A stretch of DNA of 37,349 bases from positions 1-37,349 of IMG/VR virus record IMGVR_UViG_3300044294_000054, one strand, 5' to 3'. Numbering within the stretch: position 1 is the stretch's first letter; each line of letters starts with the position of its first letter. The translations under genes and the position numbers were made by a program. The DNA is from a virus. The notes under the pieces are model-generated. The model was not told where the DNA came from. It searched no databases and saw only the letters and a list, made by a program, of their open reading frames with translations. This document shows positions 545 through 16,309 of the stretch, in pieces.

Positions 545-1879
545 ATGGCTAAACTTCTTAAACTGCGTCGCGGAACTACGACGCAACATAACACTTTTAC
601 TGGTGCTGAGGGTGAGATTACTATTGATATCACCAAAGATACTGTTGTTGTACACAATGGTACCACGGCTGGTGGTCACCCGCTGCTCCGTCAGGATCTA
701 AGCAACCTACCTGTAGGGTCTGTAACTTCGTCCCACCTGGCAGATGGGACCATTGTTAACGCTGATATTAACGCCTCTGCAGCTATTGCTTCCGCAAAGC
801 TGGCAACTACTGGCGTGACAGCTGGCAACTATGGTGCATCTACGGCTGTTCCAGTCCTCTCAATTAACGCACAGGGTCAAGTTACGGCTGCGAGTACGGC
901 TCCACTGCCAGCTGGCATTGTCACTACGTCCGACACGGGCACTGTGACCAGCACAATGATTGCTAATGAGACCATTGCCACGAGCGATCTGGCTAGTAAT
1001 GCAGTTACGACTGCCAAGATCAGCGACGGTAACGTCACCACAGCCAAGATTGCTGATAGTAATGTTACCACAGCCAAGATTGCTGATAGTAATGTTACCA
1101 CAGCCAAGATTGCTGATAGTAATGTTACCACAGCCAAGATTGCTGATAGTAATGTTACCACAGCCAAGATTGCTGATGGTAACGTCACCACCTCTAAGCT
1201 CTCTGACTCTGGGGTAACTGCTGGTACATTCCGCAGCGTCACTGTTGACGCCAAAGGTCGTGTAACTGGTGCAAGCAACCCGACTACCTTTGCTGGCTAC
1301 GGCCTGTCGGACACCTCGGCAAACCTGGCCTCAGCGATCTCTGATGAGACTGGCACTGGCCCTCTTGTTTTTGCTACCTCACCGGCTTTTGGTGGCACCC
1401 CAACTGCACCAACTGCAGCTGCTGGAACAAACACCACACAGCTCGCCACTACGGCCTTCGTAACTGCTGCTGCAAATACGGCGCAAACTAATGCTCAAAA
1501 CGCCTCTGTGCCAACTGCACGCACCGTCAGTGTTGGTTCACAGCTCTCTGGTGGTGGTGCATTGAGTGGTAACATCACCCTCAGTCACGCCACTGTGTCC
1601 ACGCAGGGTAATGTCAGCGTAGGAACTGGTAGTGTTGTTAATAGCATGACCTTTAGCAATGGTCACGTCACTGGTATTGGTACTGCTGACTACAACAGTC
1701 ATTTCTTTAATACCTTAAATATCCCTGATTACGTTGGTTTTAATAATAATTGCAATTGCCATGGTGATTGTGACTATAATTGCCATAACTGCGGCGGGAT
1801 GAGGTTTGTAGATAACGGAGGTCAAATCAGTCACACCTATTACAATTGTAGGACCAGGTGGAATTGTAATTGTTATTGA
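545..1879 (+). CDS. Tail fibre / receptor-binding protein with Cys-rich C-terminus
   Basis: A 444-residue protein. Residues 1-50 (MAKLLKLRRGTTTQHNTFTG, then a stretch ending GHPLLRQD) match the short N-terminal domain common in cyanophage tail fibres and related to the Mtd N-terminal domain. The middle is Thr/Ala/Ser rich with six decapeptide units like NVTTAKIADS (about residues 160-220), then a stretch (SVGSQLSGGGALSGNITLSH) typical of fibre ends. The protein has no cysteine before residue 403 and then eight: C403, 405, 409, 413, 416, 435, 441 and 443, each preceded by Asn (seven) or Asp (one). No clear Shine-Dalgarno sequence precedes the ATG. Genes for a radical SAM enzyme and a 2OG oxygenase-like protein follow. 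Receptor binding is inferred from family and position; modification of the tip is hypothesis. Confidence 0.8.
   Translation: MAKLLKLRRGTTTQHNTFTGAEGEITIDITKDTVVVHNGTTAGGHPLLRQDLSNLPVGSVTSSHLADGTIVNADINASAAIASAKLATTGVTAGNYGASTAVPVLSINAQGQVTAASTAPLPAGIVTTSDTGTVTSTMIANETIATSDLASNAVTTAKISDGNVTTAKIADSNVTTAKIADSNVTTAKIADSNVTTAKIADSNVTTAKIADGNVTTSKLSDSGVTAGTFRSVTVDAKGRVTGASNPTTFAGYGLSDTSANLASAISDETGTGPLVFATSPAFGGTPTAPTAAAGTNTTQLATTAFVTAAANTAQTNAQNASVPTARTVSVGSQLSGGGALSGNITLSHATVSTQGNVSVGTGSVVNSMTFSNGHVTGIGTADYNSHFFNTLNIPDYVGFNNNCNCHGDCDYNCHNCGGMRFVDNGGQISHTYYNCRTRWNCNCY
1021..1200 (+). repeat. 30-bp tandem repeat in the tail-fibre gene
   Basis: Four exact 30-bp units start at 1051, 1081, 1111 and 1141, with diverged units before (1021) and after (1171). 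They encode the decapeptide NVTTAKIADS. The identical third-codon positions show recent tandem expansion. Length changes would alter the fibre shaft in steps of ten residues without a frameshift. Confidence 0.95.
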
Positions 1880-1890
1880 TAAATTATAAA

Positions 1891-2604
1891 ATGAAAATTT
1901 TTACTATTGATAATAAAGCTATTTATCTCAGAGGGAATAGCAGGCTTGAGAATGCGGTTATCGCAGTCAATGACGACGGCATTCAGTTAGATTTGCCATT
2001 TTATATTAGTAATGAATTAGGGCCTGTTTTTAATACAATCAAACATTACAAGTTTGGTTGGAGCGACATCTTATCTCAAGCTCAAGACCATGGATTTGTT
2101 CTGATTAGCTCACTCCATCAATACGAACTGGATTTTACAATTACGCAAACCATTATAGAGACCTATGACACAAAAATAAATCCACTAAGATTTCGCAATA
2201 ATTCTTGCTTGCGAATTGCTCTTATATTCACTCCATCAAAAAATTGTACACCTAATGATGTGACTGTTTATCTCTGGGATGACGGTTTCGTTAAATTTGA
2301 CAATATAAAACTTGATGGAGTTATAAGTATGCAGGATAAATTGCCTGCTGTAGATCATATTCAAATCCTAGCCCCACAGACTTCTATAGCTGGAGAACCT
2401 ATAACTCTTTCTATCACGCAGCCAGTACCTGGGACAGATATTTATCTAGAATCTACAGCCGGTATTCTTAATCGTTCCCGCCTAAATACAGGGGCTAATG
2501 TCCTGCTAAATACAGAGGGTCTTGAGCCTGGCGATACGATCAAAGTAAAAGCCGGCTACAAGTTCTGGTCAGGCGATGCTGAAGCAATTATTTCACTTAC
2601 CTAA
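1891..2604 (+). CDS. Unknown protein with C-terminal Ig-like domain, tail-fibre cassette
   Basis: A 237-residue protein of unknown function. I chose the ATG at 1891 (MKIFTIDNKAIYL); a TTG seven codons upstream would overlap the fibre stop. Residues about 1-155 show no motif I recognise. The last 80 or so residues, beginning IQILAPQTSIAGEPITLSIT and ending in a short strand-rich segment, look like a bacterial Ig-like fold, common in surface and tail proteins. There is no signal peptide or membrane segment. The gene is clearly AT-richer than its neighbours (for example 1981-2040 is about a quarter G+C), which suggests separate origin. It lies 11 bases after the fibre and 19 bases before the radical SAM gene. 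It may be a structural fibre accessory, a fibre chaperone, or another substrate or partner of the downstream enzymes; the sequence does not decide. Confidence 0.6.
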   Translation: MKIFTIDNKAIYLRGNSRLENAVIAVNDDGIQLDLPFYISNELGPVFNTIKHYKFGWSDILSQAQDHGFVLISSLHQYELDFTITQTIIETYDTKINPLRFRNNSCLRIALIFTPSKNCTPNDVTVYLWDDGFVKFDNIKLDGVISMQDKLPAVDHIQILAPQTSIAGEPITLSITQPVPGTDIYLESTAGILNRSRLNTGANVLLNTEGLEPGDTIKVKAGYKFWSGDAEAIISLT

Positions 2605-2623
2605 TGTGCCTTAAACTACTGTA

Positions 2624-3961
2624 ATGTCCATTTTTACCCTTCACCTTCAAGATCCCATCACCAAGCAGGAGCATAAGCTCTTCTACAACAATCAGACCAG
2701 CGAGCTTCGTAATGAGCAGGGTGAGTTTGTTGTTGATGTAGAACCCAGCCAATTTAATGGGTCAGTTGCTGCTGTCTCCAAGGAAGCCCCGCTGGGTAAG
2801 AGCAGTATGCCTAATAGAATTAAGATTCAGATGGGATTGAGCTGCAACTACTCTTGTGAGTATTGCTCTCAGCGATTTGTTCCACATGCAGATGAAACGT
2901 CTGCGGAGTTGGTAGACGAATTTATGAAGAGTCTCACCTCTTGGTTTAAGCCGCCTGCTGGAGGTCTTGGTCGAAAGATTGAATTTTGGGGTGGGGAACC
3001 GCTACTCTACGCAAAGACATTCAAGCCATTGGCTGAGTGCATTCGTGCAGCTTATCCAAACATTCAAATGTCAGTCATCACCAATGGCTCACTTCTCACT
3101 AAGGAATGGGTTGATTGGCTTTATGACCTTGGATTTGGTATGGCTGTTTCCCACGATGGACCAGGACAAGCTGTTCGCGGTCCTGATCCGCTTACGCTTC
3201 CTAAAAAGAAAGAAGTGTGGTTGTATCTTTACGAAAAAATGGGCAAGGAAGGGAGGATGTCTTTTAATCCAATGCTCAATCGCCTTAACACCTCTCGTGT
3301 TGCAACTGCAAACTTCTTTCGTGAATTGACGGGTAATCCAGATGTCAAGCTTGGTGAGGGTGGGATGGTTGACGCTTATGATGAGGGTGGTAAGAGTATG
3401 TCGCTTAGGCCTGATGAATATCAAACTTTTGCCAATCAGGCGTTTGCTGAGATGCACAATAGTGATATCCTCCGCAACTTTGATATTATTAGATCCCGCC
3501 TAGAATCGTGGCTTCTTTCCTGGAAAAAGCTTCGCTCTGCGCTTGTGCTTGGTCAGAAATGCAGCATGGACAGAGAAGATCAAATTGCTGTTGACCTCCG
3601 AGGTAATGTCCTGACTTGTCAAAACACCTCAGAGGTTGCTATTTCAGGTAACGGACAAAGCCACAAGATTGGACACATGCTAGATATGGAGAATGTCAAG
3701 CTTGACACAGCTACTCATTGGAAACATAGAGATGAGTGTGCTGGCTGCCCAGTGCTTCAAGCTTGTATGGGTTCTTGCATGTTCTTACAGGGTGAGTTGT
3801 TTGAAGTGAGCTGCAACAATTCTTATTTTGACCATGTTGCGTGTTTTGCTGAGGCATTATATCTCGTTTCAGGTTGGATTCTTATCAATATAGTTGGTGA
3901 TATTAGGCCTGAGCGTCAAGACCCATTTGGCCTTCGCCCTGTCGATCAAATTCCCGCATGA
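2624..3961 (+). CDS. Radical SAM protein with SPASM domain (peptide/protein-modifying type)
   Basis: A 445-residue radical S-adenosylmethionine enzyme. The CxxxCxxC motif (C74, C78, C81 in LSCNYSCEYC) binds the 4Fe-4S cluster that cleaves SAM, and GGEP at 123-126 is the usual SAM-binding motif. The C-terminal part has a SPASM-type cysteine set: C313, C332, C372, C375, C381, C385, C397 and C407, with the CxxCx5Cx3C core. SPASM enzymes mostly modify peptides or proteins, as in anaerobic sulfatase maturation, sactipeptide and ranthipeptide thioether formation, and PQQ or mycofactocin precursor processing. The N-terminal 60 residues may be a substrate-recognition region. The stop overlaps the ATG of the oxygenase-like gene (ATGA), so the two are translationally coupled. 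No peptidase, transporter or separate small precursor gene lies nearby. The nearest Cys-rich product is the fibre tail, the likeliest target by position. Family assignment is firm; substrate is inferred. Confidence 0.9.
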   Translation: MSIFTLHLQDPITKQEHKLFYNNQTSELRNEQGEFVVDVEPSQFNGSVAAVSKEAPLGKSSMPNRIKIQMGLSCNYSCEYCSQRFVPHADETSAELVDEFMKSLTSWFKPPAGGLGRKIEFWGGEPLLYAKTFKPLAECIRAAYPNIQMSVITNGSLLTKEWVDWLYDLGFGMAVSHDGPGQAVRGPDPLTLPKKKEVWLYLYEKMGKEGRMSFNPMLNRLNTSRVATANFFRELTGNPDVKLGEGGMVDAYDEGGKSMSLRPDEYQTFANQAFAEMHNSDILRNFDIIRSRLESWLLSWKKLRSALVLGQKCSMDREDQIAVDLRGNVLTCQNTSEVAISGNGQSHKIGHMLDMENVKLDTATHWKHRDECAGCPVLQACMGSCMFLQGELFEVSCNNSYFDHVACFAEALYLVSGWILINIVGDIRPERQDPFGLRPVDQIPA

Positions 3962-4539
3962 TCAATCTTTTATTTGCGACACCCGTGGGGATCTTTGATC
4001 ACTCAGAGCTTCTGGATCAATGTCTAGAGGAGTGGAACTCATATACTTCACATATACCGACTGACAACGTTTGGCGGCTTGTTACTACACCTGGATTTAA
4101 GGCGTTGGCTACTAAATTTCAGGATAGAGCCAATGAGGTCATGGCTGCTGTTGGACGACAGGAATCTTTAACTGTTAATCGTGGCTGGCTTCAATCCCAG
4201 CGTGGCAACCATGCAGTCATTCCGCACACCCACCCATGGGACTTGCTAGTTGCAGTTTTCTACTTAAAAGTCCCCCCAGGCTCTGGAGACTTGCTAATTC
4301 AAGACCCGGCCGCTGGGTCCATGTGGTGCAACTATGAAGACCCCCAGACAGGTTCTAGCGGTAATGTTTTCAAACGGATTAGCCCATATCCCGGAATGAT
4401 GGTTGTGCATCCGGGGCACATAGTACACAGCACTCTTCCAAACAACACATCCGAAGAGCGTCTTTGTTTCGCTACTGATTTTTATTCTTTTAATCCAAAC
4501 AATCATGATTACTCTATTCGGTCTGAAGGTTTCTTATGA
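3958..4539 (+). CDS. Putative 2OG-Fe(II) oxygenase (PF13759-like)
   Basis: A 193-residue protein that resembles the 'putative 2OG-Fe(II) oxygenase' family (TIGR02466/PF13759), a double-stranded beta-helix fold. The family-like core is IPHTHPWDLLVAVFYLKVPP, with candidate iron ligands in the HxH/D segment, followed by GSGDLLIQDPAAG. The distal His lies in MMVVHPGHIVHSTLPNN, and the Arg expected to bind 2-oxoglutarate in EERLCF. Members probably hydroxylate substrates using Fe(II), O2 and 2-oxoglutarate. Its ATG overlaps the stop of the radical SAM gene, and its end overlaps the next small membrane protein by 35 bases. It is a candidate for hydroxylating Asn or Asp side chains of the neighbouring fibre, but such oxygenases are also scattered through cyanophage genomes with unknown substrates. 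Confidence 0.7.
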   Translation: MINLLFATPVGIFDHSELLDQCLEEWNSYTSHIPTDNVWRLVTTPGFKALATKFQDRANEVMAAVGRQESLTVNRGWLQSQRGNHAVIPHTHPWDLLVAVFYLKVPPGSGDLLIQDPAAGSMWCNYEDPQTGSSGNVFKRISPYPGMMVVHPGHIVHSTLPNNTSEERLCFATDFYSFNPNNHDYSIRSEGFL

Positions 4540-4708: not shown

Positions 4709-5257
4709 ATGGTACTGCTTCCCGTTAAGCAGTATTACTCGCAGACTGACAGTGCTACTAGGCACGGAGATCGGATGTGCTTTAGCTCCACGTGTGCTAT
4801 GGCCATCAAGTATCTATGGCCTACTGCACTTAGCGGCAGTAATGCTGATGATGATTACTTAGAGACTGTATTGAAATACGGGGACACAACCCAGTACACC
4901 TCGCATCTGCGAGCCTGCAATGACTATGGAGTGTTCGCATCTTTCCACACGAATGGTACTCGCTCACTATTGCTGTCTGAATTAAAAGCTGGCTATCCAG
5001 TTGCTACTGGAGTGCTCCACAAGGGGCTTGTGTCCCAACCACAGGGTGGTGGTCACTGGATGCTGCTAATTGGTGATGATGGCAAACATGGCATTTTTCA
5101 TGACCCGTATGGGGAAATGGACAACGTAGCTGGGGGCTATGTATCAGTTGGTTCGGGTGGAAAGGGAGTTAAGTACACCTGGACTAATTGGATGCGCCGT
5201 TGGGCCGTAGAAGGTGATGGTTCTGGATGGTTTATGACATTTAGAACAAATGATTGA
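4709..5257 (+). CDS. C39-like cysteine peptidase, probable endolysin
   Basis: A 182-residue protein with the papain-like C39/NlpC-type layout. A Cys lies in RHGDRMCFSSTCAMAIKYLW (C24, or C29), the His in GGGHWMLLIGDD (H116), and an Asp in HDPYGEMD (D132). This matches the Peptidase_C39_2 type of hydrolase that many cyanophages carry in the lysis position. It should cut a peptide bond in peptidoglycan after reaching the periplasm. There is no signal peptide, so export would depend on the holin-like protein encoded just upstream. T7's own amidase gp3.5 has no homologue in this window, so this is the best lysis enzyme candidate. Its end overlaps the next gene by 8 bases. Confidence 0.75.
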   Translation: MVLLPVKQYYSQTDSATRHGDRMCFSSTCAMAIKYLWPTALSGSNADDDYLETVLKYGDTTQYTSHLRACNDYGVFASFHTNGTRSLLLSELKAGYPVATGVLHKGLVSQPQGGGHWMLLIGDDGKHGIFHDPYGEMDNVAGGYVSVGSGGKGVKYTWTNWMRRWAVEGDGSGWFMTFRTND

Positions 5258-5980: not shown

Positions 5981-6247
5981 ATGGACAGCCCCCGAAGCCT
6001 CATGCATGACCTACTTACATTTCGCAGCTCTGATGCCAAACGAATGTGGAGGGACAAAATCAAGCTTAGGGACAACAATCGCTGCGTTTATTGCGGTTCA
6101 ACCAAAGACTTAACTATCGATCATGTCCGACCCCGCAGTAAGGGGGGTGAGACAAATGCCGTGAATTGTGTCACTGCCTGTCGTCTCTGTAACCAGGCCA
6201 AGGGATCAATGCCGGTTCAAGAATTTCTGTACTATCAAACTGCTTAA
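5981..6247 (+). CDS. HNH endonuclease
   Basis: An 88-residue protein with a full HNH motif: CVYCG (first Cys pair), LTIDHVRPRSKGG (the HH/DH catalytic element), VNCVTACRLCNQAKG (Asn and second CxxC pair followed by N and K). HNH proteins cut DNA with one divalent metal ion. Free-standing HNH genes beside terminase genes are known in many tailed phages, where several stimulate packaging; others are homing nucleases. The position between small and large terminase favours packaging, but this is inference. Confidence 0.85.
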   Translation: MDSPRSLMHDLLTFRSSDAKRMWRDKIKLRDNNRCVYCGSTKDLTIDHVRPRSKGGETNAVNCVTACRLCNQAKGSMPVQEFLYYQTA

Positions 6248-6249
6248 AA

Positions 6250-6480
6250 ATGACTGCTCAAGTTTTTACGGCTAGCGTTAAACCGGCCTCTTTGCTTTCT
6301 ACTTGCAAGGCTTTAGCCGAAGCTAAGACCACACTGGATGCCACTGCTGTGACTGCATTGGCAGCTCTGACTACTTCCAATCGCATTGAAGATGCTATTG
6401 ACGTGCTTAGTGCTTGCGCCGCTCGCGCCAATGTGGTGACTGCTACAAGAACTGGTTTGGCCACCAGCGTAAAGGCGTAG
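6250..6480 (+). CDS. Small Ala/Thr-rich protein, unknown
   Basis: A 76-residue protein of Ala, Thr, Val and Ser with alternating helical stretches (ASLLSTCKALAEAKTTLDAT). I recognise no family. The gene starts 2 bases after the HNH stop, and terminator-like hairpins follow it. The opposite strand is also open over most of this stretch, which is a shadow of the GC pattern; the forward frame is favoured by gene spacing and direction. Confidence 0.5.
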   Translation: MTAQVFTASVKPASLLSTCKALAEAKTTLDATAVTALAALTTSNRIEDAIDVLSACAARANVVTATRTGLATSVKA

Positions 6481-6554
6481 TGCCTTTTAGAGGCATCAGG
6501 AAGGCCCTACAAGCCCTCCTGATTGCCTTCCTGGTGTCTCCCATCCTTCCGCCT

Positions 6555-6594
6555 TCTAGAGGCCTCTCCACGGGGCTTCTAGAGGGCTCTTTTT
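6555..6594 (+). terminator. Putative rho-independent terminator
   Basis: A 10-bp stem (6555-6564 with 6574-6583, one G-U pair, 9-base loop) is followed within a few bases by ctcttttta. Another imperfect hairpin lies just upstream around 6490-6527 (aggcatcaggaagg with cctcctgattgcct). Together they fill the 125-base gap between the Ala-rich gene and the lysozyme-like gene. Confidence 0.55.
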
Positions 6595-6605
6595 ATATTT
6601 ATCCT

Positions 6606-7208
6606 ATGGCACCTAAAAATTTCTTTGCTGTTAAAAGATCACGTGAGCTTGAAACTGCTTGGAACTATCTGACTAGTGGTCAGGCACAGAAAGACAGTGG
6701 CGGCGTACTTCCCAAATTTAATTCCGAGCAAGCAGCCGGCCTAATTGGCTCTTGGATCGGTGAGACTGGCAAACCAGACCTTAAAGGCTTAGACGTCGTT
6801 GAGCAGGGAGCTGGCGAAGGTAGGGGAATGTCTCAGTACACAGACAAACGCCGCAAAGCTTACGACAGAGCACGTGCTGCTGCATTAAAGGCTGGCGAAG
6901 ATCCCAACTCAATTCAATGGCAGCTTAAGTACTTCGTACAGGAGTACGTGGGCAAGCACGACCTCAAGCCTGGGGAGAGCCTTAGCGGTTGGACACGAAT
7001 CTTTGAGAGAGCCCCTGCCAAAGGTTCTCCTGAATTCTTTGCTGATTATTACACAGGTTCTTTAGCTGAAAAGAGGGGGTATTTTCGACCTTCTGAGCCT
7101 CACCTTGAACGGCGTCAGAACGCTGCTCGGCAGGTATTTCAACTTTACAACAATCCCCCAACTCCGTCGCCTGAGCCTGAAAAAAAAACCTCTTCCAGAT
7201 TCCGTTGA
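6606..7208 (+). CDS. Phage tail-lysozyme-like muralytic protein
   Basis: A 200-residue protein starting MAPKNFFAVKRSRELETAWN. The frame is open further upstream but the added part would cross the terminator and the previous gene, so the ATG at 6606 is preferred. The central segment (AAGLIGSWIGETGKPDLKGL, then GMSQYTDKRRKAY and a QLKYFVQEY end) follows the phage tail lysozyme fold: a GxxxxES/TG helix with the catalytic Glu, a short G-x-x-QY/W loop, and an Arg-rich helix. The same domain type appears near the right edge of the window in the internal virion protein. The C-terminus is Pro-rich and basic (PPTPSPEPEKKTSSRFR). It may be a second lysis enzyme or a virion-associated hydrolase. Confidence 0.6.
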   Translation: MAPKNFFAVKRSRELETAWNYLTSGQAQKDSGGVLPKFNSEQAAGLIGSWIGETGKPDLKGLDVVEQGAGEGRGMSQYTDKRRKAYDRARAAALKAGEDPNSIQWQLKYFVQEYVGKHDLKPGESLSGWTRIFERAPAKGSPEFFADYYTGSLAEKRGYFRPSEPHLERRQNAARQVFQLYNNPPTPSPEPEKKTSSRFR

Positions 7209-15065: not shown

Positions 15066-15467
15066 ATGAAGCTGACATCAGAAGCTTGCTACCGCTGCTA
15101 TCTGATCATGGAAATCCTCCGCTCAACTGGTGAGAAGGAGTTTCCGCTTCAGCTTGCCTCATGTTTTTTCTACATAGCCAGCCATAACGGCTGCCTGCAG
15201 GAAGACGTGGTTGCTTTCACGACGCTGTCTCAGTCTGCAGTCAGTCGCAACGTGAGCTGGCTTGGGAGTCACCACCGGCTTGAGCACCGTCAAGGTCTCA
15301 AGTTAATTAGGCGTGAGCGTGATGCAGGCAACTACAAACGGTATCGTTGTTTCTTGACTCCCAAAGGTCAACAATTTGCCAATCTCATTGAACAACACAT
15401 GTCAATGAGCATCACTAACTTCGAAGCAAGCGCCCGTGCGCTGATGACTATGGAGGATGACGACTGA
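15066..15467 (+). CDS. MarR-like winged-helix regulator
   Basis: A 133-residue protein starting MKLTSEACYRCYLIMEILRS. A further start at 14979 is possible but would begin inside the promoter, so the ATG at 15066 is chosen. Residues about 40-110 fit a winged helix: a support helix (PLQLASCFFYIASHNGCLQE), the recognition helix with TLSQSAVSRNVSWLG, and a basic wing (LIRRERDAGNYKRYRCFLTP). The C-terminal helix resembles the dimerisation helix of MarR proteins. Its stop overlaps the integrase ATG (TGATG), so the two are made together. It may control integrase expression or the lysis/lysogeny choice, or act as an excisionase-like accessory protein. No repressor is otherwise apparent. Confidence 0.65.
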   Translation: MKLTSEACYRCYLIMEILRSTGEKEFPLQLASCFFYIASHNGCLQEDVVAFTTLSQSAVSRNVSWLGSHHRLEHRQGLKLIRRERDAGNYKRYRCFLTPKGQQFANLIEQHMSMSITNFEASARALMTMEDDD

Positions 15468-16309
15468 TGGCCACCTACACGTGGGGCCAGGCGTTTGACT
15501 ACACCTGGCAGACCAAATGGAAGCGTCTGGCTTCTGCTAAGACGGTCTCAATCAATGCCAACCATATCACGAAGTTTTGTGGCCGGTCACTTCCACTTAG
15601 CAGAATGGGCAAGCTCGCCTGGTGGGATGAGTTCATTTCTGAACAACAGGACGAGGGCCGCTCAGGCTCAACGATCAACAGGATTATCAGCGTCGCATCC
15701 ACCGCCATCGAGTGGACGAGGGAGCGTGAGTTACACGATGTCACTTGGCCAAAAGTGTGTCGCCTTGAGGAAGGCGAAGCCCGGCTCACCTACTTCTCCA
15801 AGGAGCAGGTGGCCCGCATGGCCTTCGTGGCCATGGACATTTTTGATCGTCAAGACCTGGCCGATGCACTCGTGCTCAGTGCTTACACAGGCGTTCGCCA
15901 AGGCGAGCTACTGCTGCTTAAGCCTGAGGACGTGGACTTCTCGACCGAGACCCTCTGGGTGGGCGGTAAGAGGGGGCGCGAGACCAAGGGGAAGGAGGTT
16001 CGAGCCATCTCGATCCATCCTCTTGTCGAACCCATCTTGAAGAACCGTTTGGATCGGCCGTACCTGTTTCGGGACGACTGGGCCAACAAGGATCAGCTCT
16101 ATCGAGCGTTCGTGAAGGTTCGCAAGTTTTGTGGGTATGGCGAGGACTACGTCTGGCACAGCCTGCGTCACAGCTTCGGCACTTGGTTGGGGGAGACCAC
16201 CCATCCCCGAACGATCATGGCTCTGATGGGCCATAAGCAGGTCGAGACTTCATTACGTTATGTGAAGCCTACCGATCAGGCCTGCAAGAGCGCGATCAGT
16301 TCCCTGTGA
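15467..16309 (+). CDS. int: Tyrosine site-specific integrase
   Basis: A 280-residue tyrosine recombinase. The catalytic set is visible: R144 (GVRQGELLLL), a Lys near 166 in GGKRGRETKGKE, H231 and R234 (HSLRHSFGTW), H256 (LMGHKQVETS) and Y265 (LRYVKPTDQ). The N-terminal 110 residues form the core-binding domain. It should join attP to attB in the host chromosome. The 5' half of a tRNA-Leu gene lies 95 bases downstream, the arrangement described for P-SSP7, where the integrase is followed by a short identity to a host tRNA-Leu gene. All key residues are present, so the enzyme looks functional. Confidence 0.92.
   Translation: MATYTWGQAFDYTWQTKWKRLASAKTVSINANHITKFCGRSLPLSRMGKLAWWDEFISEQQDEGRSGSTINRIISVASTAIEWTRERELHDVTWPKVCRLEEGEARLTYFSKEQVARMAFVAMDIFDRQDLADALVLSAYTGVRQGELLLLKPEDVDFSTETLWVGGKRGRETKGKEVRAISIHPLVEPILKNRLDRPYLFRDDWANKDQLYRAFVKVRKFCGYGEDYVWHSLRHSFGTWLGETTHPRTIMALMGHKQVETSLRYVKPTDQACKSAISSL

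Follow-up and report, generated by a model that had tools for sequence, protein, structure and literature searches.

The stretch of viral DNA analyzed here, IMG/VR record IMGVR_UViG_3300044294_000054 (positions 1 to 37,349; "the window" denotes this whole stretch of 37,349 nucleotides), is a T7-like cyanophage-type genome that encodes a phage RNA polymerase, DNA polymerase A, primase-helicase, terminase, nozzle and integrase. Our subject is a cassette of four plus-strand genes, in which a tail fibre with a cysteine-rich C-terminus (545–1879) is followed by a conserved protein with a C-terminal immunoglobulin (Ig)-like domain (1891–2604), a SPASM radical S-adenosylmethionine (rSAM) enzyme (2624–3961) and a putative 2-oxoglutarate (2OG)-Fe(II) oxygenase (3958–4539). 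An earlier note, made from the sequence alone, had listed these genes and proposed that the two enzymes modify the fibre tip; the positions and order that it gave were confirmed for all four genes, and profile matches together with the ATGA overlap at 3958–3961, where the oxygenase ATG meets the rSAM TGA, bore out the succession of a SPASM rSAM gene by a coupled 2OG-like oxygenase gene. We find that, across distant phages, fibres with a C-terminal cysteine tail go together genetically with one distinct SPASM rSAM family, and consider that the cassette is probably a maturation system for the tail-fibre tip, crosslinking the tail cysteines.

The fibre (444 aa, with phrog tail-fibre matches) begins with a major tropism determinant N-terminal domain (Mtd_N; PF18454, E=2e-12, 47.1 bits vs. 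a gathering score of 26.3) and is therefore a receptor-binding-type fibre; repeats lie between this domain and the tip, which spans residues 403–444 (positions 1751–1876, CNCHGDCDYNCHNCGG...YNCRTRWNCNCY). Translation verified that all eight cysteines of the protein (residues 403, 405, 409, 413, 416, 435, 441 and 443) fall within its last 42 residues; under random placement, the probability of finding all eight within even the last 47 would be ∼9e-9. In three IMG/VR contigs encoding an 87% identical rSAM enzyme, the tip varies at other residues but retains each of the eight cysteines, and it ends in WNCxCACNC at the stop codon vs. WNCNCY in the window. A second PF13759 gene lies ahead of the rSAM gene in at least two of these three nearest relatives (L002/L008 and L004/L010). 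Among isolates, the Achromobacter siphophages JWF and 2-1 come closest, with rSAM enzymes 45–47% identical by tblastn, a 240-aa protein encoded directly upstream of the rSAM gene and, before that, a fibre otherwise unlike that of the window. In JWF the fibre tail reads ...NCNCDCNCNCSC, and a Hint autoprocessing domain (PF05203, E=3e-12) comes after it.

The link between enzyme and tail was assessed from both sides. An rSAM alignment used as query retrieved 80 loci from viruses (of 390 relatives) and 23 from bacterial genomes; 49 dereplicated phage and prophage loci with at least 6 kb of upstream sequence were selected from these by the rSAM gene alone. A terminal tail was scored as C[NDA]C[NDA]C no more than 20 residues from the end of an open reading frame (ORF). 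Such a tail (e.g. NCNCDCNCC or FNCNCNCRC, each ending at the stop codon) terminated an upstream same-strand ORF in 41/49 loci, and in three more it was placed just ahead of a Hint domain; on the minus strand or downstream the terminal pattern occurred in 0/49. The five loci without an upstream tail comprise the window itself (eight cysteines, no strict CXCXC), L025, L103, L108, where the rSAM match is partial, and L109, where an NCNCDCTC-Hint protein lies downstream of the rSAM gene. The earlier note had held that rSAM homologues regularly found without a Cys-rich fibre nearby would speak against its proposal, and these counts run the other way. A restriction of the arrangement to cyanophages was ruled out by linkage in Burkholderiales, Rhodobacterales and other prophages, as well as in many metagenomic phages.

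For the converse sampling, IMG/VR was scanned with a degenerate DNA pattern for NCNC[DN]CNC, which yielded at least 120 loci, not dereplicated and including related phages. A motif was considered testable if it was in frame, no more than 40 residues from a stop codon and followed by at least 3.5 kb of downstream sequence, and an rSAM gene was called at a profile E≤1e-5. Among the matches listed, 58 of 60 testable motifs had a same-strand rSAM gene downstream, with scores mostly of 290–740 bits and about a sixth more distant (44–171 bits); of the two exceptions, the rSAM gene lies further off in L223, and L229 appears spurious. Out-of-frame matches were accompanied by an rSAM gene in 0/14 cases, setting apart L116, which was counted as out of frame but has a real tail truncated by the contig start and an rSAM gene present. 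A control pattern built from the same codons in another order matched 18 loci, with an rSAM gene in 0/18 (Fisher p∼1e-9 for 58/60 vs. 0/9 controls of equal flank). The co-occurrence of Asn-Cys-rich fibre ends with this rSAM family, which the earlier note had proposed to look for, is thus borne out reciprocally, by two samplings independent of each other.

Ten fibres without an rSAM gene nearby have 0–1 Cys in their last 60 residues. Nine of these are Mtd_N homologues (S-TIP37, CRP-3, BPP-1 Mtd, AH02, S-CAM1, S-SSM7 and one each from a Vibrio phage, a Sinorhizobium phage and a gut phage), and the tenth is a tail fibre of the relative S-CBP1. BLAST clustering placed the 142 distinct tail carriers in 15 groups, the largest with 110 members (single linkage may overmerge), and 44 of the 142 are shorter than 160 aa. 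Judged from these sequences, the tail moves among unrelated proteins yet keeps one enzyme family, and so appears to behave as a portable enzyme substrate. In 69 distinct tails, part of which were picked by the NC pattern such that N is somewhat favored by selection, the residue between cysteines is N in 188, A in 37 and D in 32 of 281 positions, N precedes the first Cys in 61/69, and the runs hold 3–10 Cys and end 0–7 residues from the stop codon. Hint domains also follow the Cys tail in fibre-type proteins of L005 (6802–8244), L006 (6676–8127), L031, L081, L091 and L109, which suggests that Hint self-cleavage would expose the same terminal tail or pass it on as a thioester. Tail-type Cys motifs that end mostly short proteins (67–197 aa) were seen in L115, L134, L161, L183, L121, L128 and L171, each with one or more distant, low-scoring rSAM genes nearby; these short proteins look more like classical precursors of ribosomally synthesized and post-translationally modified peptides (RiPPs).

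The rSAM enzyme (445 aa) matches PF04055, phrog_1802 (E=3e-61) and the SPASM model TIGR04085 (residues 313–388, 32.8 bits vs. a cut-off of 27). Its CX3CX2C cluster motif (C74-X3-C78-X2-C81, positions 2843–2866) is invariant in 43 sequences, as is a complete 7-Cys SPASM motif (C313-X13-G327-X4-C332, C372-X2-C375-X5-C381-X3-C385 and C397; positions 3560–3814). The best solved match to its AlphaFold2 model (predicted local distance difference test (pLDDT) score 90.3) is the ranthipeptide maturase CteB (Foldseek E=3e-12; Z 23.9 over 353 residues to 5wgg and Z 23.3 to 5why), followed by ChlB (Z 21), anSME (20.8), TigE (18.3), SkfB (14.8) and EpeE (13). The CteB alignment begins at residue 1, where the N-terminus is modelled as a beta-hairpin alone, with no helices. 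The protein is a SPASM rSAM enzyme but stands outside the named maturase families, because its scores are far below their NCBIfam cut-offs: 50 bits vs. 340 for PapB (NF047865) and 61 vs. 349 for the sulphatase maturases (TIGR03942), while the SCIFF model (TIGR03974) was matched by the JWF homologue only (44 bits vs. 425).

The oxygenase belongs to PF13759 (2OG-FeII_Oxy_5; 52.3 bits vs. a gathering score of 27, E=8e-14), with His90, His92, Gly146 and His157 invariant in 35 homologues. Among 67 related loci with adequate flanks, 2OG-type genes of several families (PF13759, PF13640, a weak PF05118-like match and one linked to the window's family by profile comparison at 99.3% probability) occur in 41; three of the eight 2OG gene clusters (c14, c35 and c55) were assigned by eye or by a weak Pfam match. 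These genes are optional, as they are confined to 41/67 loci and missing from the Achromobacter phages. Six loci have a fatty-acid-desaturase-like family near the rSAM gene (assigned by eye, with no Pfam match), and the enzyme set is modular, with the rSAM gene constant. A tryptophan-halogenase family gene (PF04820) was observed near the rSAM gene in L014, L092, L168 and L177. The second gene of the cassette (237 aa, ATG at 1891, stop at 2604), described earlier as an AT-rich unknown gene, is indeed AT-rich (GC 0.38 vs. 0.49 for the window) but is not an orphan, since its type, a diverse family (UNK2), recurs in 58/67 of these loci. A sequence search of the PDB returned nothing useful for it, and by fold only the Ig-like domain (residues 154–237, positions 2350–2601) could be placed; in a model with pLDDT 87.8 this domain lies near intimin/invasin and the phage Chi neck protein (Z 9.9 to 8vhx and 1f00), a resemblance that would make a virion or fibre-binding role likely.

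That the rSAM enzyme acts on the fibre tip, as the earlier note supposed, is very probable given the reciprocal linkage with negative controls, the unrelated carriers and the peptide-maturase fold. As to the chemistry, we lean slightly towards thioether crosslinking, because the fold is CteB-like and the alternating, N/D-rich tail offers known acceptors. In the proposed mechanism, the rSAM enzyme would bind the fibre tail late in infection, and the 5'-deoxyadenosyl radical would start the joining of tail Cys sulphurs to Asn or Asp, less often to Ala, such that the N-C-N-C-D-C tail would be crosslinked into a rigid tip. The 2OG oxygenase might then hydroxylate Asn/Asp or adjacent residues as an optional decoration, although the case for its acting on the same tip is evenly balanced; its role in the window could be independent, as 2OG genes trail fibres in cyanophages without an rSAM gene (S-TIP37). 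The Ig-domain protein may partner the fibre tip, as its chaperone, as an adaptor or as a second component of the virion, and the completed tip would contact the host, with a use in host recognition being fairly likely. This mechanism predicts a loss of 2 Da per crosslink and blocked thiols.

A number of points weigh against crosslinking at the fibre tip. All of its support comes from sequence, and the tail modification itself is a prediction. Radical SAM enzymes are oxygen-sensitive, and many of the relatives are found in aerobic hosts. The tip in the window is divergent and missed the strict tail pattern, making the window an atypical member of the tail-rSAM group, and oxygenases are absent from 26/67 loci. 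In addition, neither a leader peptide nor a complete leader-binding domain could be recognized in the rSAM system, and the enzyme falls well short of the cut-off of every named maturase that it matched.

Among the alternatives, the enzyme could act on the tail without forming thioethers, epimerizing or oxidizing alternate residues in the manner of RiPP epimerases, with alternating chirality shaping the tip and Cys retained as a radical donor or for later disulphides. The strict alternation of Cys with N/D/A is what a chemistry acting on every second residue needs, and the epimerase EpeE is among the fold matches; yet CteB and ChlB fit far better (Z 24 and 21 vs. 13), a 7-Cys SPASM domain is what crosslinking maturases typically have, and the one residue that never changes in the tail is Cys, which usually serves as the donor in thioethers, all of which leaves epimerization or oxidation unlikely. 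Slightly less likely still is a metal- or cluster-binding tip, with CXC as in metallothioneins, in which case the rSAM enzyme and the oxygenase would serve another step (e.g. delivery) or unrelated metabolism. CXC-rich runs bind soft metals and the window tip also holds His, but the enzyme resembles peptide maturases, its gene is tied to the tail in 58/60 (among the matches listed) and about 44/49 loci, and no metal tip is known to need an rSAM enzyme.

We regard as improbable a phage-borne RiPP pathway in which the tail is cut off and released at lysis as a small modified peptide, with the fibre as its carrier. The usual RiPP cluster layout (a small leader-bearing precursor with a protease and/or exporter) was not seen among the window genes examined, which include no transporter or protease dedicated to the cassette, in line with the earlier note. 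Its statement that there is no separate precursor stands for the window, where the tail ends the 444-aa fibre, but not for the family, in which the tail is often carried by a separate protein of just 65–135 aa. These short proteins would suit release, as would the additional modifying-type genes (e.g. the halogenase family) and the Hint domains of some carriers, which could free the tail; however, most carriers are fibre proteins, and those with Hint domains keep the tail on the fibre side. The C39-like gene directly after the cassette (4709–5257) was rejected as a RiPP protease: it is an endolysin-type gene (phrog_10051, E=1e-56; PF13529 just below its cut-off) that matches, at the DNA level, genes annotated as lysozymes in S-CBP1 and S-CBP3, phages in which no rSAM gene was found nearby. 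A mere coincidence of position, with the rSAM enzyme and the oxygenase being unrelated host-takeover genes behind a fibre, is highly improbable. PF13759/phrog_81 oxygenases are classed as morons, and in S-TIP37 a 2OG oxygenase gene follows the fibre with no rSAM gene nearby; for the rSAM enzyme, coincidence is contradicted by the reciprocal linkage, the clean negative controls and the distant, dereplicated phages, whereas for the oxygenase alone it is plausible.

Crosslinking of the fibre tip would resemble the work of the ranthipeptide/SCIFF maturases (CteB/CteA, PapB/freyrasin and NxxcB/NxxcA), which share with the phage system a SPASM rSAM enzyme, a Cys-rich substrate and N/D acceptors, and among which CteB is the closest solved structure. 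Known ranthipeptide beta-thioethers join Cys to Asn in NxxcA and Cys to Asp in freyrasin, and the auxiliary cluster of CteB has an open site facing the substrate (PMC8326336). The phage system differs in its proposed substrate, a C-terminal tail on a large virion protein, in having neither an identified leader nor a complete leader-binding domain, and in scores far below the family cut-offs. QhpD, the maturase of quinohemoprotein amine dehydrogenase, places Cys-Asp/Glu thioethers in a protein subunit rather than in a natural-product peptide (PMC8326336), which parallels the predicted action on a protein; however, its substrate is an enzyme subunit and not a fibre, and the phage enzyme scores 48 bits vs. 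453 for its family (TIGR03906). Sulphatase maturases (anSME) are likewise SPASM rSAM enzymes acting on a protein Cys, form the third structural match group and lend their name to the annotation of the JWF homologue, but modify a single Cys/Ser of a sulphatase rather than a repeated tail. With the tropism determinant Mtd of Bordetella phage BPP-1 the N-terminal Mtd_N domain is shared; its tip is varied by a reverse transcriptase cassette, has one Cys in its last 60 residues and has no rSAM gene nearby. Fibre chaperones and self-processing fibre domains also provide phage-encoded maturation of fibre ends, and some tails here precede Hint, but they act through folding or proteolysis rather than the radical chemistry proposed.

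No description of such a system was found in the openly accessible full-text literature, a scope that most subscription papers lie outside, and the earlier note likewise knew of none. Within that literature, the enzymes are of known kinds and a leaderless C-terminal virion tail as a dedicated rSAM substrate is new; it is possible that this could rank as a new kind of system if the chemistry is confirmed. The linkage pattern suggests that the viruses with such a tail and enzyme chemically build the tip that touches the host. In its widest form, on which we are evenly divided, tailed phages would widely use rSAM cassettes, with optional oxygenases and, in a few loci, a halogenase gene, to build a crosslinked and decorated C-terminal peptide on unrelated fibres as a portable host-contact tip, and this would be the first case of RiPP-like chemistry at the surface of a virion. 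If true, part of the phage host-contact surface would be made by radical chemistry, beyond the folded polypeptide; sequence or structure prediction alone would miss the chemistry of the tip, and fibres produced in the absence of the enzyme would be incorrect. It would also supply the phage rSAM genes of phrog_1802, a large family that has been an orphan, with a substrate and a motif, and would point to a maturation of C-terminal tags that works on large proteins and needs no leader, of use in enzymology and protein engineering.

Elsewhere in the window, an integrase gene lies at 15467–16309 (phrog_1, E=1e-39). When the window ends are joined, a reading frame stays open across the junction; circular closure is not concluded, because a relative has a separate 944-aa fibre at that place. 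Within the Thalassobacter family the rSAM gene occurs in only 3/296 genomes, and one Thalassobacter stenotrophicus genome holds four rSAM copies or fragments at separate sites (L101, L104, L106 and L108). Besides JWF and 2-1 (47% identity), tblastn with further rSAM subfamilies as queries returned only distant rSAM enzymes from other isolates, namely Campylobacter, Salmonella, Thermus and Fusobacterium phages, and the rSAM neighbors in CP220 include no NC tail. In Salmonella phage SPN3US (L248, NC_027402.1, ∼6100–7170), Cys-rich reading frames that the annotation missed or read in another frame (e.g. ...YDCGGTCSFSCSSCSGGCTGS...CSGGCSGPNS and HYNCNGGCSWSCSGSCSRGAGNR, each at its stop codon) lie between a virion structural gene and the rSAM genes gp102 and gp103, and may be phage rSAM substrates of a second type, here in a phage that has been cultured. 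In Thermus phage phiMa (L250, MH673674.1, 5012–7299), a tail-like protein with HSD/HGD/HAD repeats adjoins an rSAM gene, and the C-terminus of that rSAM enzyme echoes the same theme (DHGDYTDHGDAPHGDHWDG).

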